Below are positions 1,450-62,972 of a stretch of 64,000 bases of DNA, piece by piece. The notes below the pieces were generated by a model that made no database searches, was not told the origin of the DNA, and was given only the letters and a program-made list of their open reading frames with translations. The stretch comes from Desulfoferula mesophila (GTDB lineage Bacteria > Desulfobacterota > Desulfarculia > Desulfarculales > Desulfarculaceae). A program made the translations under genes and the position numbers. The stretch's first letter is position 1. Each line of letters opens with the position of its first letter. The DNA lies in assembly GCF_037076455.1 (NCBI RefSeq), contig NZ_AP028679.1:4045501-4109500 (forward strand), written 5' to 3'.

Positions 1450-2292
1450 ATGAGCGATGAATTCATAGCCGGTTTCAACCCGCCCCCGGACGACGGCGGC
1501 CCGGCTTGGTGGCTCATTTACCACGAAGACAAATTCCTGGTCCAGGACGAGGACCCGCCCCGTCTGCCCCTGGCGCGCCAAGTCTGGGAGCTGGGGCTCA
1601 CGTTGGAAACGGCGCGCTATCTGGGGCAATGGCAGGGGCGGCCCGCCTATGCCGCCACCCTGGGCCATCCCGCGGCCACGCCCGAGGGCTACGCCTGGCA
1701 CGGCCTCTACGGCCTGGCCATGGGCTGGCCCGAGGGGCTGACCGCCCTGGGCGGCCGGGCCAAGCAGATTCTGGCCTGGGAGCGGCGCAACCGCTTCTGC
1801 GGGGTATGCGCCTCGCCCATGATCGACGATCCCAAAGAGCGGGCCCGGCGCTGCCCCCGCTGCGGCCTGGTGGCCTATCCCCGGGTCTCCCCGGCGGTGA
1901 TCATGGCCGTGCAGCGCGAGGGCAAGGTTCTCCTGGGCCGTTCGCCGCGTTTCGCGCCGGGGCGCATGAGCGTGCTGGCCGGGTTCGTGGAGCCGGGCGA
2001 GACCCTGGAGCAGACGGTGGCCCGCGAAATCAAGGAAGAGGTGGGCATCGCCGTGACGGACATCCGCTACTTCGCCTCCCAGCCCTGGCCGTTTCCCGAC
2101 TCGCTCATGGTGGGCTTCACCTGCCAGTGGGTCGCCGGGGAGATAGAGGTGGACGGCGAGGAGATCGTGGAGGCGGGCTGGTACGGCCTGGAAGATCTGC
2201 CCCGCATCCCGCCGCGCTCCACCATCGCCCGGCGGCTCATCGACCACGTGGTGGTGGGGGCCCAGCACCTGGGCTCCACCGGCTGGCGCTAG
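1450..2292 (+). CDS. nudC: NAD(H)/NADH pyrophosphatase (NudC type Nudix hydrolase)
   Basis: A 280-residue protein that hydrolyses NADH/NAD+ to NMN(H) and AMP, and in E. coli also removes NAD caps from RNA. A zinc ribbon is visible (C117, C120, C135, C138), followed by a complete Nudix box at about 178-200 (GFVEPGET...REIKEEVGI). The downstream SQPWPFP motif is the NudC-specific signature that separates it from other Nudix enzymes. The ATG at 1450 is preceded by a weak purine-rich stretch. The thioesterase gene starts 2 nt after its stop, so the two are probably co-transcribed. Confidence 0.93.
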   Translation: MSDEFIAGFNPPPDDGGPAWWLIYHEDKFLVQDEDPPRLPLARQVWELGLTLETARYLGQWQGRPAYAATLGHPAATPEGYAWHGLYGLAMGWPEGLTALGGRAKQILAWERRNRFCGVCASPMIDDPKERARRCPRCGLVAYPRVSPAVIMAVQREGKVLLGRSPRFAPGRMSVLAGFVEPGETLEQTVAREIKEEVGIAVTDIRYFASQPWPFPDSLMVGFTCQWVAGEIEVDGEEIVEAGWYGLEDLPRIPPRSTIARRLIDHVVVGAQHLGSTGWR

Positions 2293-2294
2293 CC

Positions 2295-2849
2295 GTGTAT
2301 CCCCTGGTGCGCACCGCCAAGGTGGCCCTGGCCGCCCTGGGCCGCCCGCCCCTGAAGCTGGGCGACACCTCGCGCATCAGCCTGCGGGTGTGGCCCGGCG
2401 ACCTGGACCTGTACCTGCACATGAACAACGGCCGCTACCTGAGCCTCATGGACCTGGGGCGCCTGGATTTCATCATCCGGGTGGGTCTGTTGCCCTTCAT
2501 GCGCCGCCAGCGCTGGCGGCCCCTGCTGGCCGCGGCCACCACCCGTTTCTGGCGCTCGCTCAAGCCCTTCCAGCGCTTTGCCATGGAGACCAAGGTGGTG
2601 TGGTGGGACGAGAAGTGGATCTATCTGGAGCAGGAGATGCTCCACGATGGGCACCTGGCCGCCCAGGGGATGATGAAGATGGTGATCAAGTCGCCCAAGG
2701 GCACCGTGGACCCGCCCTCGGCGGCGCGCGCCCTGGGGGCCCACCCGGTGCCCGCCCCGGCTCCCCCGCGCGGCCTGGCCGATTGGATTCATTGGGAACA
2801 AGCGTTAAAAAACGGGAGCAATCCTCCGCCTACCCGGGAGCGTACCTAA
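2295..2849 (+). CDS. hot-dog fold acyl-CoA thioesterase (4HBT_2 type)
   Basis: The reading frame has no ATG near its beginning. The likely start is GTG at 2295, 2 nt after the nudC stop, giving 184 residues. The sequence LHMNNGRYLSLMDLGRLDFIIR is characteristic of THEM6/4HBT_2 thioesterase-like proteins, where the Asn-Asn-Gly-Arg-Tyr region forms the active-site helix. It presumably hydrolyses acyl thioesters in the cytoplasm; the chain length is unknown. The C-terminus is Pro-rich. Its TAA overlaps the stop codon of the convergent histidine kinase gene by 2 nt. Confidence 0.8.
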   Translation: MYPLVRTAKVALAALGRPPLKLGDTSRISLRVWPGDLDLYLHMNNGRYLSLMDLGRLDFIIRVGLLPFMRRQRWRPLLAAATTRFWRSLKPFQRFAMETKVVWWDEKWIYLEQEMLHDGHLAAQGMMKMVIKSPKGTVDPPSAARALGAHPVPAPAPPRGLADWIHWEQALKNGSNPPPTRERT

Positions 2850-4627
2850 GCCTGCTCCAAGGCGGCACGCACCGCTTTAAGCAATTCACCGCGCAAGAAC
2901 GGTTTGGCCGCGAAACCCTGCAGCCCCAAGGTGCTCATCTCCTCCATCAGCTCTTGGGGGGCGTACCCGCTGGCCAGGACCACCTTCACCTCCGGCGACA
3001 GCTCCCGCAGGCGCTTCAGGCAGGTTCGGCCGTCCATGCCCGGCATGCTTATGTCCAGGACCACCAGGTCGAACCCGCCGTTGGCTCTAAAGCGCGCCAG
3101 GGCCTCCTCGCCGCCGGCGGCCACTTCCACCCGGTAGCCGGCCTCGGTGAGCAGCCGGTGGCCCAGGTTCAAGATGGCGGGCTCGTCGTCCACCACCAAA
3201 ACACGCTCCCGCTCGTCCGGTAGCTCGGCGGAAGAGGCCGGTGCGGGCGCCTGGCCCTCGTTTTGGCAAACCGGAAAATACAGGTCGAAACAGGTTCCCT
3301 GGCCCGGTTCGCTTTGGCAGACGATGCGCCCCCCCAGGGAGTTGACGATGCCGTACACCGTGGAGAGCCCCAGGCCGGTGCCCCGGCCGGCCTCTTTGGT
3401 GGTGAAAAAGGGCTCGAAGACCCGCTCCTGGGTGGCCTCGTCCATGCCCTGGCCCTGGTCGCGCACCCTAAGGCGCAGGTAGGGGCCGGAGGAAAGCTGG
3501 GCCTGGTCCACCCCGCAATCGTCCATCGAGGCGTGAGCGGAGGTGCTCACCGTCAAGAGGCCGCCTTGGGGCATGGCGTCGCGGGCGTTGGTGGCCAGGT
3601 TTATAAGCACATGCTCCAGTTGCACCGCATCGCCCAGCATTTTCCCCAGACCGGGAGCCAGATCCAACTGCACGGTCACCGCTTTGGGCAAGGCGTGACC
3701 CAGCAACTCCGCGGCGTCGCGTACCGTCCGGTTCAGGTCCAGGGGGCCCACCCGCGCCTCTTGCCGGCGGCTGTAAGTCATTATGCCGCTGACCAGGCTG
3801 TGGCCCTTGCGCCCGGCGGCCAGCACCTGCTCCAGGTCGGCGATGTCGACTACGCCGTTGCGGGCCTGGCCCAGGGCCGCCTCGCCGTAGCCCATCATCA
3901 CCGTTAGGATGTTGTTGAACTCGTGGGCGAGGCCCCCGGCCAAAGTGCCCAGGGATTCCAGCTTCTGGCTCTGCTTGAGCTGGTCGTCCAGGCGGGCCCG
4001 CTCCTCTTCGGCCTTGCGCCGGCCGCTTACGTCGCGGAACACCAGCACCACGCCGTCCACTTTTCCCTCGGCGGTTTTGATGGGCGCCCCGCTGTCCTCG
4101 ATGGGCGCCCGGCGTCCGTCCTTGCTCACCAACAGGGTGTGGTTGGCCAGGCCCACCACGATTCCCTCGGCCAAAACCTTGTCCACCGGGCTGGCCACCG
4201 GCCTCAGGGTGTACTCGTTGATGATGTTAAAGACTTCATGCAAGGGCCGGCCCCGGGCCTCGGAGGCCCGCCAGCCGGTGAGGCCCTCGGCGGTGGGGTT
4301 GAGGAAAGAAACCCGGCCTTGGCGGTCGGTGACGATTACCGCGTCGCCGATGCTGGTCAGGGTCGTGGAGAGCCATTGACGGCTGGCGCTTAGCTGCGTC
4401 CTGGCCTTTTGCAAACGCTCCACTATGCCCCCGGCCACTACGCCGAACCCCACGAAGCAGACCAGGATCAACAGGCGGATGTATAGCTCGTGGGCGGGAA
4501 CCTCGGTGAGCAAAAGGCCCAACAAGCTGCCCTTGTAAAACCAGATATAGTCCGTCAGGCCGTCCGCGAACCAGATGAACAGCCCCAGGCCCACGGCCAA
4601 CGCTATGATTTTGTGGCTGGTGCGCAA
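2846..4627 (-). CDS. membrane-bound hybrid histidine kinase (PAS-HisKA-HATPase-REC)
   Basis: A 593-residue sensor kinase. Two membrane segments (about 7-27 and 47-67) are followed by a PAS domain (about 85-205). The HisKA motif GGLAHEFNNIL has the phospho-acceptor at His235. The ATP-binding domain has N-box NLATNARDAM and G-boxes up to GTGLGLSTVYG near 416-426. A C-terminal receiver carries the DD pair at 480-481 and phospho-acceptor Asp525 (LDISMPGMDG). The periplasmic loop between the two membrane helices is short, so sensing is probably through the membrane or the PAS domain. No response regulator with an output domain is adjacent, so the phosphorelay target is unknown. Confidence 0.92.
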   Translation of the reverse strand: MRTSHKIIALAVGLGLFIWFADGLTDYIWFYKGSLLGLLLTEVPAHELYIRLLILVCFVGFGVVAGGIVERLQKARTQLSASRQWLSTTLTSIGDAVIVTDRQGRVSFLNPTAEGLTGWRASEARGRPLHEVFNIINEYTLRPVASPVDKVLAEGIVVGLANHTLLVSKDGRRAPIEDSGAPIKTAEGKVDGVVLVFRDVSGRRKAEEERARLDDQLKQSQKLESLGTLAGGLAHEFNNILTVMMGYGEAALGQARNGVVDIADLEQVLAAGRKGHSLVSGIMTYSRRQEARVGPLDLNRTVRDAAELLGHALPKAVTVQLDLAPGLGKMLGDAVQLEHVLINLATNARDAMPQGGLLTVSTSAHASMDDCGVDQAQLSSGPYLRLRVRDQGQGMDEATQERVFEPFFTTKEAGRGTGLGLSTVYGIVNSLGGRIVCQSEPGQGTCFDLYFPVCQNEGQAPAPASSAELPDERERVLVVDDEPAILNLGHRLLTEAGYRVEVAAGGEEALARFRANGGFDLVVLDISMPGMDGRTCLKRLRELSPEVKVVLASGYAPQELMEEMSTLGLQGFAAKPFLRGELLKAVRAALEQA

Positions 4628-7846: not shown

Positions 7847-7950
7847 GACAAGGCGTCGGGCGCGCGAGACCCGCAGGCGTATCAACCAATACGCCGAGGA
7901 GGCGAGCGCCGCCCGCAACGCTGTATCGCGCCGCCTGGCGCAGCCGCCGC
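7847..7950 (-). repeat. structured stop-abutting repeat, copy R2
   Basis: In the orientation of the glcD-type gene the element starts at the base after the TAG stop (7951-7953) with GCGGCGGCTGCGCCAG. The central stem is GGCGTAT (7876-7882) with ATACGCC (7889-7895); the outer stem is GGCG/CGGGC with GCCCG-CAA-CGC. The stem sequence differs from R1 and R3, but base pairing is preserved. Confidence 0.75.
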
Positions 7951-9342
7951 CTAGGCTAAGATGTCGGGGGTTGGTACGGCCTTGTGAGGATTAAGAATGC
8001 CCGCCGGGTCAAAGAGCCGCTTGATGCCGCGCATCAGCTCCATGGCCACCGGGTCCAGCTCGGCCCCCACGTAGCCCAGCTTGGCGTTGCCCACCCCGTG
8101 CTCGCCGCTGAGCGAGCCGCCCACCTTGAGCACCTGGGCGAAGACGTCGGTGACCGCCTGGTGGGCCTGGCGGTTCTGTTCGGGGTCGGAGGCGTCGTAC
8201 ATCACGTTGACGTGCAGGTTGCCGTCACCGGCGTGGCCAAAGGTGGGGATGAGCACTCCGCGCCGCTGGCCGATTGCGTGGATGGCCCGGATGGCCTGGG
8301 CCAGGCGGCCCAGGGGCACCACCACGTCCTCGTTGAGCTTGTTGGGGGCCAGATTGTACATGGCCGGGCCCATGGAGCGCCGCGCCCGCCACAGTTCGGC
8401 CGCCTCGGCCGGGTCCAGGGCCAGGCGCACCTGGCGCCCGCCGCCCTCCTCCAGTACCCGGGCCAGGCGCCGGGCCTGGCCGGCCACCACCTCGGGCGCG
8501 CCGTCCACGTCGATGAGCACCATGGCCTCGGCCTCGGGGGGCAGGCCCAGGCCCGCGTGGGCGTTGACCGCCCCCAGGCTCTGGGAGTCGATAAACTCCA
8601 GGGCCGCCGGGGTTATGCCGCTCATGAGCACCGCCTGCACCGCCTGGGCGGCGGTCTCCAACTCGTGGAACAGGGCGCTCACCGTGGCTTTGGCCTCGGG
8701 CTTGGGCAACAGGCGCAGGGTCAGCTCGGTCATCACCGCCAGGGTGCCCTCGCTGCCCACCAGCAGGCGGGTGAGGTCGTAGCCCACCACCGTCTTCATG
8801 GTGGAGCGCCCGGTGCGCAGCACCCGGCCGTCGGGCAGCACCGCCTGCAGGGCCAGCACGTAGTCGCGGGTCACGCCGTATTTGACCGCGCGCAGGCCGC
8901 CGGAGTTCTCGGCCGCGTTGCCCCCCACGGTGCAAAACTCCACGCTGGCCGGGTCGGGGGGATAGAACAGGCCCCGGGCCTCGGCGGCCCGCTGCAGGTC
9001 GGCGGTGATCACCCCCGGCTGCACCACGGCCACATGGTCGGCGGGGTCGACCTTGAGGATGCGGTCCATGCCCGCCAGGTTGAGCACCAGGCCGCCGTCC
9101 ACCGGCAGGGAGCCGCCGGACTGGCCCGAGCCCGCCCCCCGGGGCACCACCGGCACCCGGTGCTGGCTGGCCGCGGCCAAGACCCGGGCGATCTGCTCCA
9201 CCTCCACCCCTCGCACCACCGCCTCGGGCGGGTAGCTCTTGCCGGTGGCGTCGTAGGAATAGAGCAGGCGGTCCTCCTGGCCGTCGCTGAAGTTTTCGGC
9301 TCCGGCGGCCTGGATCAGGGCGCTGCGGGCGGCGGGGTTCAT
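7951..9342 (-). CDS. FAD-binding oxidoreductase, glycolate/D-lactate oxidase GlcD type
   Basis: A 463-residue flavoprotein of the FAD-linked oxidase family (PCMH FAD-binding domain plus C-terminal cap). The FAD signature PRGAGSGQSGGSLPVDGGLVL lies near residues 87-107, GGNAAENSGGLRAVKYG follows, and the C-terminal GHAGDGNLHVN motif supplies the catalytic or metal-binding histidines. It should oxidise a 2-hydroxy acid such as glycolate or D-lactate. The ATG at 9342 is chosen because GGAGG lies 5 nt upstream; an in-frame ATG 20 codons earlier lacks that support. No GlcE, GlcF or Fe-S partner is adjacent, so the electron acceptor is unknown. Confidence 0.88.
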   Translation of the reverse strand: MNPAARSALIQAAGAENFSDGQEDRLLYSYDATGKSYPPEAVVRGVEVEQIARVLAAASQHRVPVVPRGAGSGQSGGSLPVDGGLVLNLAGMDRILKVDPADHVAVVQPGVITADLQRAAEARGLFYPPDPASVEFCTVGGNAAENSGGLRAVKYGVTRDYVLALQAVLPDGRVLRTGRSTMKTVVGYDLTRLLVGSEGTLAVMTELTLRLLPKPEAKATVSALFHELETAAQAVQAVLMSGITPAALEFIDSQSLGAVNAHAGLGLPPEAEAMVLIDVDGAPEVVAGQARRLARVLEEGGGRQVRLALDPAEAAELWRARRSMGPAMYNLAPNKLNEDVVVPLGRLAQAIRAIHAIGQRRGVLIPTFGHAGDGNLHVNVMYDASDPEQNRQAHQAVTDVFAQVLKVGGSLSGEHGVGNAKLGYVGAELDPVAMELMRGIKRLFDPAGILNPHKAVPTPDILA

Positions 9343-9436
9343 CGATCCTCCAGAAATGCCCTGGCCCGGATATTTCACGGGGACCGGGGCAACATAGTAC
9401 AATGCTAACTTAATACCACAATGCGGGGGAGCATTC

Positions 9437-10807
9437 TTGCCGTCCCTTTACCGCCATAGCGCCCTGCTTTTCGCCCTGGCCCTCTTGGCCCTGGCCCTGG
9501 CTTGCGCTCCGGCTCCGGCTCCGGCTCCCGCGCCGCCCCAGGGCCTGGTCCTGCCCCCCCAGGAACTGGCTCCCCTGTTCAAGCGCGGCGATGGCGACGG
9601 CTGCCTGCTCCGGCCCGCCTACCAGGCCGAGCGGGCGTCGGACTATCTGGTTCGCTACTTCGAATGCTGGACCCGCAGCGCGCCCAAACACAGCCGGGCG
9701 GAGCTATGGGCCCTGGCCCAGCCGCTGGTGGACGAGCCCGGCCTGGGCGTCAACCTGCGAAAACGGCCCCAGGGCTGGTACCAGGCCCTGTGGCGGGCGG
9801 CCGGAGGCCGGGCCTACCCCAACACCGACTGGAAGGGCCTGACCCTGGGGCCCTGCAACCTGCGGGTGCTGCCCAGCCGGGAGCCGGATTTCGCCCAAGG
9901 CCCCGGCGGCGGCTTTCCTTTCGACCGCCTGCAACAGACCTCCCTGCCCGGCGGCCTGCCGGTGCGGGTGTGGCTGGTGAGCCCCAGGGGCGACTGGCTG
10001 GTGGCCGAGACCCCCCTGGCCCTGGGCTGGCTGCCCGTCCGGGCGGTGGGGCGGCTGAGCGCGGAGCAGGCCGCGCAGTGGCAGCAGGGGCCCTTCGTGA
10101 CCGTGACCCGGGACGGCGGCCCGCTGCGCACCCCGGACGGCGGCTTCTTGTGCGACGCGGCCCTGGGCTGGCTGCTGCCCCGGCGGGAAGGTGGCCGGGC
10201 GGCCTGGCGGGTGCGCTTCCCCCTGGCCGCTCCGGGGGGGCGGGCCAAGCTGGGCGGGGCCTTTCTGCCCCGGGGGGCGGCCGCGCCCTTCCCCCTATCC
10301 CTTACCCCCGCCAACCTGGAGCAGGTGGCCGGCCCCCTGTTGGGGCGGCCCTACGACTGGGGCGGCCAGTGGGGCGGGCGGGACTGCTCGGCCCTGACCC
10401 GCGACCTGTTGGCCCCCTTTGGCTTGTGGCTGCCGCGCAACTCCGCCGACCAGGCCAAGGCCGGGGTGGAGCACATCCCCCTGGATGGCCTGGGCAACCA
10501 GAAAAAACAAGAGCTTATAATGCGGCGCGGCATCCCCTGGCTCAGCCTGCTATACATGCCCGGCCACGTGATGCTCTACGTGGGCGCGCCCCAGGGCCAA
10601 CCTTTGGTGCTGCAAGCCCTGTGGGGCCTCAAGACCCGCACCCCCCAGGGCCAGGGTCGGCTGGTGGTGGGGCGGGTGGTGCTCAGCGGCCTTAACCCAG
10701 GGGAACAACTGCCGGACTTGGCCCAGCCCGAAGGCCTGCTCCTGCCCCGGGTCACCACCCTGGCCCTGCTGGCCCCGCCGGAAGAGCTCTGCCCCCGAAC
10801 CGACTAA
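9437..10807 (+). CDS. NlpC/P60 family lipoprotein with SH3 domains
   Basis: A 456-residue exported protein. The TTG start at 9437 follows a GGGGGAG ribosome site. A lipoprotein signal ends LALAC, with the lipidated Cys at 23, followed by an Ala-Pro repeat linker. The middle resembles the SH3b-containing NlpC/P60 proteins. The catalytic domain shows the nucleophile Cys317 in GGRDCSALTRDLL, and the His motif MPGHVMLYVG about 60 residues later. It probably cleaves peptidoglycan stem peptides (gamma-D-Glu-DAP endopeptidase) at the inner face of the outer membrane. Confidence 0.85.
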   Translation: MPSLYRHSALLFALALLALALACAPAPAPAPAPPQGLVLPPQELAPLFKRGDGDGCLLRPAYQAERASDYLVRYFECWTRSAPKHSRAELWALAQPLVDEPGLGVNLRKRPQGWYQALWRAAGGRAYPNTDWKGLTLGPCNLRVLPSREPDFAQGPGGGFPFDRLQQTSLPGGLPVRVWLVSPRGDWLVAETPLALGWLPVRAVGRLSAEQAAQWQQGPFVTVTRDGGPLRTPDGGFLCDAALGWLLPRREGGRAAWRVRFPLAAPGGRAKLGGAFLPRGAAAPFPLSLTPANLEQVAGPLLGRPYDWGGQWGGRDCSALTRDLLAPFGLWLPRNSADQAKAGVEHIPLDGLGNQKKQELIMRRGIPWLSLLYMPGHVMLYVGAPQGQPLVLQALWGLKTRTPQGQGRLVVGRVVLSGLNPGEQLPDLAQPEGLLLPRVTTLALLAPPEELCPRTD

Positions 10808-58604: not shown

Positions 58605-58851
58605 TGTGGAAAAGTCAATCAACTAATTGGTTATAATAGAAATCATCTTGTTGAAAACTTGTTGATTGGCTATTGAAAAGCCCAAATGACGGTGGAAAAC
58701 CCGGATGAAAAACGGTTGTTATTCCGGCAGACTCGGTGAAAAACTCGTTGAGTTCACCAAATGGTTGGTGGAAAAACGGCGGGTAATTCCCTGAGAGCGG
58801 TTGAAAGGCCGGGGGTAAATGGCGCAAAAATAGCAGGTGGCCGGTGGATAA
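58605..58851. other. candidate chromosomal replication origin: phased DnaA-box-like array
   Basis: Nine same-strand 9-mers related to GGTKGAAAA (reverse complement of TTTTCMACC) start at 58605, 58649, 58671, 58691, 58703, 58734, 58767, 58799 and 58843. The first, TGTGGAAAA, and last, GGTGGATAA, are closest to the classical DnaA box (TGTGGATAA). Gaps of 44, 22, 20, 12, 31, 33, 32 and 44 nt are near multiples of one helical turn. AT-rich DNA (about 58614-58660) overlaps the first two boxes. The dnaA gene begins about 1.7 kb downstream. Confidence 0.7.
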
Positions 58852-58887: not shown

Positions 58888-59991
58888 ATGCTCATCGGGG
58901 TGCCCAAGGAGATAAAGACCGAGGAATACCGGGTGGCCATGACCCCCGCCGGGGTGCGGATCCTGGTCGCGGCGGGCCATCAGGTGCGGGTGGAGACGGG
59001 CGCGGGCCTGGGCGCGGGCATCACCGACGAGGCCTACGCCTCGGCCGGAGCCCGGCTCACCGACGCCGTCGGGGCCTGGGAAGCCGCCATGGTGGTCAAG
59101 GTCAAGGAGCCCCTGCCCCCTGAATACGGCTATTTCCGGCCCGGCCTGCTGCTCTACACCTATCTACACCTGGCTGCCCAGCCCGAGCTGACCCACCGCC
59201 TGATCCAGGACCGGGTGACGGCGGTGGCCTACGAGACCATCCAACTGCCCGACGGCAGCCTGCCCCTCTTGGAGCCCATGAGCCGGGTGGCCGGGCGCAT
59301 GGCGGTGCAGGCCGGGGCCCACTACCTGGAGCGCCCCCAGGGCGGGCGAGGGGTGCTCTTGGGCGGGGTGCCCGGAGTGGCCCCCGGCCGGGTGGCCATC
59401 CTGGGGGCCGGGACGGTGGGCCACGCGGCCCTGAAGATGGCCCTGGGGCTCCGGGCCCAGGTGACGGTGCTCAACCGCACCGCCCCCCGCCTCAACCACC
59501 TGGACGACCTCTACGGCGGGCGGGTGACCACCCTGCTCTCCCTGCCTGAGACGGTGGCCGAGGCCTGCGCGGCCAGCGACCTGGTGATCGGGGCGGTGCT
59601 CTCGCCGGGGGCCAGGGCTCCCCAGCTGGTGAGCGAAGAAATGGTCGGGAGCATGCAACCCGGTTCGGTGATCGTGGACGTGGCCATCGACCAGGGCGGC
59701 TGCGTGGCCACCATGCGCCCCACCACCCACGCGGACCCGGTGTTCACCGTGCACGGGGTGATCCACTACGGAGTGGCCAACATGCCCGGCGCGGTGGCCC
59801 GCACCAGCACTCTGGCCCTGACCGGGGCCACCCTGCCCTACGCCCTGGTGCTGGCCCATGAGGGCCTGGCCGCCGCCCGCCGCGACCCCGCCCTGGCCCT
59901 GGGGGTCAACACGGCCGGCGGGCTGTTGGTGCATCCGGCGGTGGCCGCCGCCCTGGGCCAAAGCGCCGCGCCCCTGGAGCAGGCTCTCTGA
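58888..59991 (+). CDS. ald: alanine dehydrogenase
   Basis: A 367-residue NAD-dependent enzyme catalysing alanine and pyruvate interconversion. The N-terminal motif MLIGVPKEIKTEEYRVAMTP, the substrate-binding YTYLHLA, the NAD-binding GAGTVGHAALKMALGLRAQVTVLNR, and DVAIDQGG are typical. GGGAGG precedes the ATG. It sits between the box array and dnaA. Confidence 0.95.
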   Translation: MLIGVPKEIKTEEYRVAMTPAGVRILVAAGHQVRVETGAGLGAGITDEAYASAGARLTDAVGAWEAAMVVKVKEPLPPEYGYFRPGLLLYTYLHLAAQPELTHRLIQDRVTAVAYETIQLPDGSLPLLEPMSRVAGRMAVQAGAHYLERPQGGRGVLLGGVPGVAPGRVAILGAGTVGHAALKMALGLRAQVTVLNRTAPRLNHLDDLYGGRVTTLLSLPETVAEACAASDLVIGAVLSPGARAPQLVSEEMVGSMQPGSVIVDVAIDQGGCVATMRPTTHADPVFTVHGVIHYGVANMPGAVARTSTLALTGATLPYALVLAHEGLAAARRDPALALGVNTAGGLLVHPAVAAALGQSAAPLEQAL

Positions 59992-60544
59992 GCCCGCGCC
60001 GAGGCCGCGCTTCCAGCGGTTTCGGGTGCGCATGGCGAAAACCAGCCCTGAAAAACGACGGGTTGCCGGGGGGTGAAATTTTTTTTGAACCCCCTCCCTG
60101 GGCCGGGACACCATCTTTGGTCATATTTCCCGGTAGTTATCCGCCGCCTTAATCCAATGAGATTAATTTGGGCGAAAAACGCCGAAATATCGCGATAATC
60201 GTCGAAAATAGGATTACGCCTATGTGGCCAAAATATGGCACAGTTGTGACATTATTGAGAAACTCAAGCGTGGATGGAGCTTAGCCCAACTGCCCACAGA
60301 GGCCTTCATTCAGGCACCTACAGAAATTGTCCTTCGATTTACAGTGAAACCAAATGGTTATCATTGTGGTCAAGTGGAGGAAGCTTACGGGCCACGCCGA
60401 GATATATCAAGATTGACCGCTGGTGGGAACAAAAGCAATGATGCTCCAGACACAATGTCGCACCGGGTCACTTTTTAAACACAGTCTTATTCGCTTATTA
60501 ATTCCGCCTTGTCGCGGATTCACGGGGGCCTTTTTTCCTCAACC
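59992..60544. other. AT-richer region upstream of dnaA, possible DUE or foreign DNA
   Basis: GC content drops sharply between about 60070 and 60500. A short T-run hairpin near 60068-60092 may end the ald transcript. Several GAAAA-containing motifs and a TTATCCGCC (60138-60146) could add DnaA contacts. One 84-codon reading frame (listed separately) lies here. No other feature was found. Confidence 0.45.
60224..60478 (+). CDS. 84-aa reading frame of atypical composition
   Basis: A GTG-started frame encoding MAKIWHSCDIIEKLKRGWSL and ending near DTMSHRVTF. Third positions are A/T-rich, unlike all neighbouring genes, and AGGA lies about 10 nt upstream. No family is recognised. It may be a recently acquired gene, a remnant, or chance. 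Confidence 0.35.
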   Translation: MAKIWHSCDIIEKLKRGWSLAQLPTEAFIQAPTEIVLRFTVKPNGYHCGQVEEAYGPRRDISRLTAGGNKSNDAPDTMSHRVTF

Positions 60545-61969
60545 ATGAACTACGGCCAATCACATACGCACAATACCCCCATGTTGGAGCCTTCCCCCAG
60601 CGCCTCGGCCAGGCCAGCCGAGGCGGAAATTTTATGGCGGAAGCTATTGAGCAGCCTGGACGGCGGCCTGGATCCCCAGGACTACGGCCTGTGGCTGGAA
60701 CCACTACAGCCTAAACCCCTGCGGGGTAACCGGCTGGTACTGCTCTGCCCCAACCAATTGCATCTCAACACCGTTCAGCAACGCTTCGCGCCCTTGCTGC
60801 AACAGCATCTGGCCGAGCTGCACCCCGATCTGGAGCTGGTTCTGGAGTCTCCCCGGCCCGCCGCGCGCCGCGCCTCCCAGCCGCCCCCCCCGGCGGCCCC
60901 GGCCCCCCGCCAGATGGAGCTGCCCCGCATGGGGGCCTTGCAGATGCCCCGGCTGAACCAGCGCTACGTTTTCGACAACTTCGTGGCCGGCGGAGGCAAC
61001 GAGTTCGCCTTTGCCGCGGCCAAGGCCCTGGCCGGCGGCGGCGGCTTGTTTTCTAACGGCCTGTTTTTGGTCTCGGGCACCGGCCTGGGCAAGAGCCACC
61101 TCACCCAGGCGGTGGGGCACCAGATCCTGGGCTACATGCCCCAGACCAGAGTGGCCTACCTGACCGCCGAGGACTTCACCAACCAGATGATCGCCGCCAT
61201 CCGGGGCAAGCGGGCCGACCAGTTCAAACAACGCTTCCGCACCGGCTGCGACCTGCTGCTCTTGGAGGAGGTCCAGTTCCTGGCCGGCAAGGACAAGACT
61301 CAGGATGAGCTGGTCTATACCCTGGACGCCCTGGCCGACGCGGGCAAGCGGGTGGTGTTCACCGGGCGCATGGCCCCGGCCCAATTGCAGGGCCTGGCCC
61401 CGGCCCTGGTCAGCCGCCTGGCCGACAGCGTGACCGTGGGCATCGAGCCCCCGGACTTCGCCACCCGGGTGCGCATCCTCAAGCGCCAAGCCGCCCAGGA
61501 GGGCATGGCCGTGCCCCCCGAGGTGCTGGAGTTTTTGTCCCAGGAGATACCCGACGACGTGCGCCGCCTGCGCTCGGCCCTGGTGGGGCTCATGGCCCGC
61601 GCCAGCCTCACCGGACGGCCCCTCGACCTGGGCCTGGCCGCGGAGGTGTTGGGCCAGTTGGCCTCCCGCCTGCGCCGGGTGAGCCCGGCCCAGATCCGCG
61701 ACCTGGTGGCCACGGTCTACGGCATGGAGAGCAAGCTGCTCACCGGCAAGAGCCGCAAAAAGGCGGTGGTGCGGCCGCGCAACCTGGCCATGTGCCTGTG
61801 CCGCCGCCACACCGACGCCTCCTTCGCGGCCATAGGCCAGGTGTTCAACCGCAACCACGCCACGGTGATGTACGGGGTGGACCAGATCGAACGCAAGCTG
61901 GAGATCGAGCCCAAGCTGGCCGCCGAGTTGGCCTTCTTGGAGCAGCGCTTGGGGGTGAGCGGCGGCTAG
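60545..61969 (+). CDS. dnaA: chromosomal replication initiator DnaA (divergent)
   Basis: About 474 residues with all four DnaA domains: domain I (LWRKLLSSLDGGLDPQDYGLWLEPL), a Pro-rich domain II, an AAA+ domain and a helix-turn-helix domain IV (CRRHTDASFAAIGQVFNRNHATVMYG). Walker A is SGTGLGKSH (177-185); Walker B is LLLLEEVQF (237-245), with EE instead of DD. The arginine-finger region keeps SR (LVSRLADS). In domain IV the usual GRDHTTV reads NRNHATV, changing bases-contacting Asp and Thr. The start is uncertain (ATG 60545 or 60581; no clear ribosome site). Confidence 0.9.
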   Translation: MNYGQSHTHNTPMLEPSPSASARPAEAEILWRKLLSSLDGGLDPQDYGLWLEPLQPKPLRGNRLVLLCPNQLHLNTVQQRFAPLLQQHLAELHPDLELVLESPRPAARRASQPPPPAAPAPRQMELPRMGALQMPRLNQRYVFDNFVAGGGNEFAFAAAKALAGGGGLFSNGLFLVSGTGLGKSHLTQAVGHQILGYMPQTRVAYLTAEDFTNQMIAAIRGKRADQFKQRFRTGCDLLLLEEVQFLAGKDKTQDELVYTLDALADAGKRVVFTGRMAPAQLQGLAPALVSRLADSVTVGIEPPDFATRVRILKRQAAQEGMAVPPEVLEFLSQEIPDDVRRLRSALVGLMARASLTGRPLDLGLAAEVLGQLASRLRRVSPAQIRDLVATVYGMESKLLTGKSRKKAVVRPRNLAMCLCRRHTDASFAAIGQVFNRNHATVMYGVDQIERKLEIEPKLAAELAFLEQRLGVSGG

Positions 61970-62150: not shown

Positions 62151-62489
62151 TCAGGCCTCACTTGGGAGGTTGAGTTTGTCCTGCCAGATCATGCGCAACA
62201 GTTCCAGGTCTTGGGCGTAGTCGCTTTTCGTTTCGTCCTGGTCGTATTCCAGACGTTCCAGCACCTCGACGATGAAATTGTCCGCGCCCTGCTCGCTCCA
62301 CTCGGATTGCAGCCGCCGGTCGGGGTGAGAACCCCGCGCAAGCTGGAAACGATAGCGGTTCATCAGGCTTTTCAGATCCTTGGCCGAGTATAGATAGCAA
62401 TTTCCGCTTATCCTGGATTGGATCCGGAACACCCCCATCTCCGGCTTCATGCTCTTGTACATTTCCTTGAGTTCTTTTTTGTCGGCCAT
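62151..62489 (-). CDS. GIY-YIG-like protein with degenerate catalytic motifs
   Basis: A 112-residue protein aligned with small GIY-YIG nucleases (MGVFRIQSRISGNCYLYSAKDLKSLMNRYRFQLARGSHPDRRLQSEW...ENF-like DNFIVEVLE). The GIY block is GVF and YIG is replaced by LYS; a final Glu (VEVLE) remains. It may be an inactive or modified nuclease. It lies 3 nt downstream of the DUF6530-like gene. GC content is lower than the surrounding genome. Confidence 0.7.
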   Translation of the reverse strand: MADKKELKEMYKSMKPEMGVFRIQSRISGNCYLYSAKDLKSLMNRYRFQLARGSHPDRRLQSEWSEQGADNFIVEVLERLEYDQDETKSDYAQDLELLRMIWQDKLNLPSEA

Positions 62490-62492
62490 CGC

Positions 62493-62972
62493 TCAATAAC
62501 CCATTTCCCTTAAAATCCGGGCCAGCATCTTAAGCCGCTCTCCGATCAGCTCATCGTCACGGTGCAGGGCCTCTGAAAATAGCTGCATGTCTTCATCGAT
62601 CTTTTCGTTGTCCAGGCAGACGGCGACGGTCATGGCCTCTCCCTGCAGGCCGACCCTGGCGATTTGGGCCTGGTCCTGGTCGTAGAGCTTCTCGTAGCGG
62701 TAGGCCTCCCTGAAATGAAGCAGGGACTGACAGATCATGATCCCCAAATCCAGCACGCGGTGCAGGGGCAATTCCTCTGATTGCCGGGACCACTTGCCCC
62801 CCGTATGCCGCCAAACCTTGGCGGATATCTCGACCTTGCCCCGTTCGTTCCATTGGGCCAGCCCCAAGGAAAGGCCCTTGGCATCGGAATGATTGGCGTA
62901 GCGGCCGTCCACCTTCTCGTAGTCCTCCACCACGAAAACCGGCTTGTGCTTAAGGTATGTAGGGACCTTCAT
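62493..62972 (-). CDS. DUF6530-like conserved protein
   Basis: A 159-residue protein with blocks YANHSDAKGLSLGLAQWNERGKVEIS, SEELPLHRVLDLGIMICQSLLHFREAYRYEKLYD and GERLKMLARILREMGY. It closely recalls a family I know as DUF6530, mostly from Firmicutes; this is from memory. AAAGGGAAAGGGC lies before the ATG. It is the first gene of a two-gene operon driven by a strong promoter with operator palindromes. Function unknown. Confidence 0.7.
   Translation of the reverse strand: MKVPTYLKHKPVFVVEDYEKVDGRYANHSDAKGLSLGLAQWNERGKVEISAKVWRHTGGKWSRQSEELPLHRVLDLGIMICQSLLHFREAYRYEKLYDQDQAQIARVGLQGEAMTVAVCLDNEKIDEDMQLFSEALHRDDELIGERLKMLARILREMGY

Follow-up and report, generated by a model that had tools for sequence, protein, structure and literature searches.

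The chromosome of Desulfoferula mesophila carries a helically phased array of DnaA-box-like sequences upstream of ald and a dnaA gene, which raises the question of whether this locus is an origin of replication or a site that serves DnaA in another way. The array was analysed in a window of 64,000 nucleotides, to which the coordinates below refer unless the genome record is named. A preliminary description of the window had proposed the array as a candidate oriC.

Architecture of the box array

The array (58605–58851, plus strand) was composed of nine 9-mers on a single strand, with the consensus GGTGGAAAA or GGTTGAAAA, and was kept in relatives. Box 1 (TGTGGAAAA, 58605–58613), located 5' of an AT-rich patch, matched TTTTCCACA perfectly on the minus strand. 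Box 2 (TGTTGAAAA, 58649–58657) had, in the minus-strand reading, four NAN triplets downstream, separated from it by a 10-bp spacer. Box 3 (TATTGAAAA, 58671–58679), box 4 (GGTGGAAAA, 58691–58699), box 5 (GGATGAAAA, 58703–58711), box 6 (CGGTGAAAAA, 58734–58743), box 7 (GGTGGAAAA, 58767–58775), box 8 (GGTTGAAAG, 58799–58807), and box 9 (GGTGGATAA, 58843–58851) were also on the plus strand, and box 8 had the same letters in the D. mesophila genome (G000) and in G009, G006, and G005. The starts and spacings given in the preliminary description (44, 22, 20, 12, 31, 33, 32, and 44 nt) were exact.

The nine starts fitted a period of 10.8 bp (R = 0.94), and equal phasing was obtained in 1 of 20,000 random nine-site placements, an approximate value because the sites were picked by eye. 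When a fixed box score was applied to both strands of 1.63 Mb (36% of the chromosome), the segment 58601–58860 ranked first among 160,870 scanning windows, with a periodic power of 55.6 compared with 26.7 for the runner-up (mean 5.3, s.d. 3.1). The phasing and this top rank bore out the earlier proposal that the sites lie on one face of the DNA. The box score was devised after the arrays had been seen; its absolute z-values are therefore fitted in part, and the ranks are the safer measure.

Between boxes 1 and 2, 31 of 40 positions were A or T (about 58610–58649), which confirmed the AT-rich patch previously noted at the first two boxes and represents a possible DNA unwinding element. Two features sought in an oriC, a cluster of DnaA boxes and an adjacent AT-rich element, were present at the locus. 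A BUS module is defined by a box, a spacer of at most 16 bp, and at least three NAN trios (PMC8287927); box 2 and its four trios were BUS-like, a pattern that has low specificity in AT-rich DNA and was not seen in most relatives. A sigma-70-like promoter scan gave no hit at the array, and no Rfam family was matched at the locus.

The second dnaA gene and its neighbours

The array was preceded by tatA, with a terminator-like stem after this gene, and was followed by ald (58888–59991, plus strand), encoding alanine dehydrogenase, which started 37 bp past the last box. The AT-rich intergenic region between ald and the dnaA gene (59992–60544, plus strand) contained a weaker phased signal on the same strand, strongest at about 60052–60251. 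This signal exceeded all shuffles, as did the corresponding signals in G009, G008, and G007, and a weak signal at this place recurred in several genomes of the genus.

The dnaA gene lies about 1.7 kb from the array and beyond ald, in the distance and order first described, but it was the second, divergent dnaA of the genome (dnaA2, 60545–61969, plus strand). Domains I, III, and IV were detected in DnaA2, with matches above the cut-off to PF11638, PF00308, and PF08299 (N-terminal, ATPase, and C-terminal helix-turn-helix, respectively), and the Walker A and DnaA helix-turn-helix motifs were intact. A DUF6530 protein (62496–62972, minus strand) adjoined dnaA2, beside a 112-residue protein without a Pfam match (62154–62489).

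The genome contained two full dnaA genes on a single contig of 4,479,191 bp, of which the window spans positions 4,045,501–4,109,500. The other gene, dnaA1, opened the record (2–1336 of the contig) and was followed by dnaN (2101–3216) and gyrB (7881–10271). DnaA2 shared 34% identity with DnaA1. The recognition-helix motif was kept in both proteins, as KDHSTV in DnaA1 and R(D/N)H(A/S)TV, preceded by one residue fewer, in DnaA2. In a maximum-likelihood tree, the DnaA1 and DnaA2 proteins of the family fell into two separate groups, each with a support of 100/99, and DnaA2 grouped with DnaA proteins from other families of the class (100/99). This separation and grouping indicate that the split between DnaA1 and DnaA2 is old.

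One DnaA was detectable in most of the 59 sampled genomes of the phylum. In five genomes of the class outside the family (G026 and G028–G031), the sole DnaA detected belonged to the DnaA2 clade, with the proviso that a very divergent dnaN-linked copy could escape detection. This suggests that the DnaA2 clade can serve as sole initiator, and, because the DnaA domains are also kept, proteins of this clade are probably able to initiate replication.

Two genomes of the set (G012 and G013) had a third dnaA of the DnaA2 clade, without a phased array beside it, and in both the array-linked dnaA2 had one in-frame TGA inside the matched stretch. The D. mesophila genome also contained about 24 near-identical genes for IstB-like ATPases (263–268 residues) matching the DnaA ATPase profile, which fell by score into 15 equal copies and groups of 7 and 2 and represent a heavy load of IS21-type elements.

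Conservation in Desulfarculaceae

The search covered 19 relatives in the family, including Desulfarculaceae MAGs, Dethiosulfatarculus sandiegensis, and Desulfocarbo indianensis. DnaA matches were found in all 19, nearly all of which had both genes. When the box scores of 14 family genomes were pooled, repeats appeared at 11 bp (z = 21.6), 22 bp (24.3), 32–33 bp (29.7 at 32), and 43–44 bp (25.8 at 44), whereas the opposite strand of the pooled arrays showed no box-score periodicity. The phased spacing, whose conservation had been proposed as a check, was thus kept across the family. Among four close relatives, the boxes were conserved by column; an 11-bp periodicity of the invariant columns was not significant. 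Outside the family, a search beside dnaA2-type genes gave no similar array with the same motif.

Within the genus, the order was pyrF, a short gene, tatA, the array, ald, and dnaA2, so that the suggested comparison of the tatA–ald–dnaA region gave a syntenic arrangement with the array upstream of ald. In genera g1 and g5, the array was separated from dnaA2 by ald, which was absent from this place in g2, g3, g4, and g6. In the ald-less genomes G001, G002, G011, and G018, the array occupied the apparently non-coding stretch immediately 5' of dnaA2, and no convincing gene separated the two. Since the array stays before dnaA2 in these genomes, it belongs with dnaA2 and not with ald.

The box GGTGGAAAA was common to the array and to the dnaA1–dnaN region, and G001 had TGTGGAAAA at both loci. 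The AT-rich patch was strong in about 9 of 13 family arrays and weak or missing in G007, G008, G010, and G015, although the arrays of these four genomes were strong.

Position of the chromosomal origin

The GC skew of the D. mesophila chromosome was obtained from sampled 20-kb stretches and from 390 kb of uninterrupted sequence around the array. In the sampled stretches, positive skew prevailed between 1 and 2.2 Mb and negative skew between 2.3 and 4.45 Mb, which places one switch near position 1 and the opposite switch near 2.25 Mb. The array, at 4.104 Mb of the record, lay about 370–375 kb from the switch at position 1. The preliminary description had named a skew minimum far from the array as evidence against its proposal, and the minimum was found at this distance. 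No skew switch was present at the array, where the 100-kb flanks had skews of −0.0001 (left) and −0.0106 (right), the reverse of the trace of a bidirectional origin. Orientation-split third-position skew was swamped by the coding strand and was uninformative.

Other origin landmarks were also located at dnaA1. Three parS-like sites, each with one mismatch, were all found at 35.8–38.7 kb, and a reversed-pattern control gave none; dnaN and gyrB were at 2.1–10.3 kb, away from the array. The dnaA1–dnaN gap contained three direct GGTGGAAAA boxes at 31 bp, an inverted TTTTCCACC, a 17-bp gap, and the triplets TAT TAT TAC TAA. These boxes and triplets form a BUS-like, putative unwinding module, and the layout was found again in most relatives. 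The dnaA1–dnaN boxes were phased too (peaks near 11–12, 20–21, 31, and 42), more weakly than the dnaA2 array.

The closed genome G001 (3,655,731 bp, one contig) gave the same result. Its skew was mostly negative through dnaA2 and turned positive, unevenly, at dnaA1–dnaN, 273 kb away. The proposal that the array is oriC does not hold against the skew switch, the three parS-like sites, and dnaN, all of which are at the dnaA1 locus. The record of G001 starts at dnaA2 (L124:351–1658), 273 kb from the skew switch and dnaA1–dnaN, and its coordinate origin is probably misplaced. In both closed genomes, dnaA2 was offset leftwards from oriC with the same orientation, by 8.3% of the genome in D. mesophila and 7.5% in G001.

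Proposed function of the array

Since the array lies about 370–375 kb from the origin indicated by base composition, a control element is the probable reading, whereas a second origin is no more than a possibility. We estimate an even chance that the array is a DnaA-responsive control site at dnaA2, acting through a filament, titration, or regulation, with replication starting at dnaA1–dnaN. Judged from sequence, the array is probably a family-conserved, putative nucleation site for DnaA filaments that controls or titrates DnaA. This reading starts from what the DNA itself contains, namely the array, its phasing, conservation, and linkage to dnaA2, and the remote skew switch and parS sites; to these it adds that DnaA1, DnaA2, or both may bind, form a filament, be titrated, and act in regulation at the array. 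Direct-repeat boxes about one turn apart support head-to-tail oligomers of ATP-DnaA in E. coli (PMC10316083; PMC4285127), and the same arrangement at the array is the ground on which we infer a DnaA filament.

In the proposed mechanism, a one-directional DnaA-oligomerisation array would stand before dnaA2 in Desulfarculaceae. The strong anchor boxes (T/GGTGGAAAA) would be bound first by DnaA, which would then spread head-to-tail along the weaker sites, with one protomer per 11-bp turn, to give a filament on a single face of the DNA. Such a filament may sequester DnaA away from oriC and may tune ald–dnaA2 transcription as DnaA accumulates. This role would resemble that of datA in E. coli (PMC4585315) and of the DnaA-box clusters of B. 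subtilis (PMC5295017), combined with regulation of dnaA2. In G008, G015, G007, and G010, the array remains strong despite a weak or lost AT-rich patch, which favours control or titration over use as an origin. On the other side, the origin-like polarity and the AT-rich patch (5' of the TGTGGAAAA boxes), kept in most relatives, exceed what titration needs.

The main rival, with a complete anatomy and the correct polarity in most relatives, is that the array, the AT-rich patch, and dnaA2 form an auxiliary second origin that has an initiator to itself and is used rarely or only under special conditions. A box, a 40-bp AT-rich patch, and a directional array follow one another, the patch being on the side where E. 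coli has it (PMC10316083); the array is better phased than that at dnaA1–dnaN; and DnaA2 keeps the DnaA domains, while in several members of the class no DnaA of another clade was detected. The two closed genomes nevertheless lack a skew switch at dnaA2, the parS-like sites and dnaN sit at dnaA1, and four relatives keep the array with a weak or lost patch, so we regard a second origin as rather unlikely. It is likewise improbable that Desulfarculaceae chromosomes have two origin modules with two initiators, the main one at dnaA1–dnaN and a conditional one at the dnaA2 array.

Distinctly unlikely is an array that acts only as an autoregulatory operator of dnaA2 (and ald), repressing or activating these genes and leaving DnaA elsewhere unaffected. 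The array is always directly upstream of dnaA2 or ald–dnaA2, and the short distance from the last box to ald would suit an operator, but a length of 200–500 bp is long for a simple one, and the scan for sigma-70-like promoters, the one promoter class covered, gave none at the array. Binding of the repeats by an unrelated regulator of ald was rejected as very improbable: the array is immediately 5' of ald in the genus of the window, but it remains with dnaA2 in ald-less genomes and its motif is identical to the dnaA1–dnaN boxes. Scarcely credible is the array as principal chromosomal origin, for all that it is the best-phased box array in the sampled genome with a dnaA close by, given the skew switches at position 1 and about 2.25 Mb, the distant parS-like sites, the family-conserved BUS-like module at dnaA1–dnaN, and the equal outcome in G001.

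Comparison with known systems

The left DnaA-oligomerisation region of E. coli oriC and its unwinding element resemble the array in their direct-repeat boxes about one turn apart, and the AT-rich element is 5' of the TGTGGATAA-like boxes, on the same side as at the array. The array differs from this system in its greater length, its linkage to a second dnaA, its distance of about 375 kb from the skew origin, and the lack of a skew switch.

The datA and DARS sites of E. coli and the DnaA-box clusters of B. subtilis, which restrain initiation (PMC5295017), likewise have boxes outside oriC. These sites have few boxes and lack a strict 11-bp phase on one strand, an AT-rich patch, and a second dnaA, whereas the array has all of these. 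The relative distance between datA and oriC is constant in E. coli (PMC4585315), and the offsets of dnaA2 from oriC in the two closed genomes (8.3% and 7.5%) are comparable to it, in so far as two genomes allow.

Bipartite origins, such as those of B. subtilis and H. pylori, have two box clusters around a gene, and a weak second signal was present here between ald and dnaA2. The spacer gene is ald instead of dnaA, however, and the locus is off the skew origin. In the putative double origins reported by Gao in 2015 (PMC4403523), two DnaA-box loci are found per chromosome, some with two dnaA genes, as observed here; a switch of the disparity curve was required at the second locus, and the array has none.

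The position of dnaA alone can misplace an origin, as exemplified by the G001 record, opened at dnaA2. The regularity of the array, unusual for a natural substrate, suits it to studies of DnaA filaments on double-stranded DNA. The natural use of more than one origin per bacterial chromosome is an open question (PMC4403523). With two DnaA proteins of ancient separation and two phased DnaA-box loci on one chromosome maintained throughout the family, Desulfarculaceae allow a direct comparison of the second-origin model with the titration model in organisms for which closed genomes or isolates exist.
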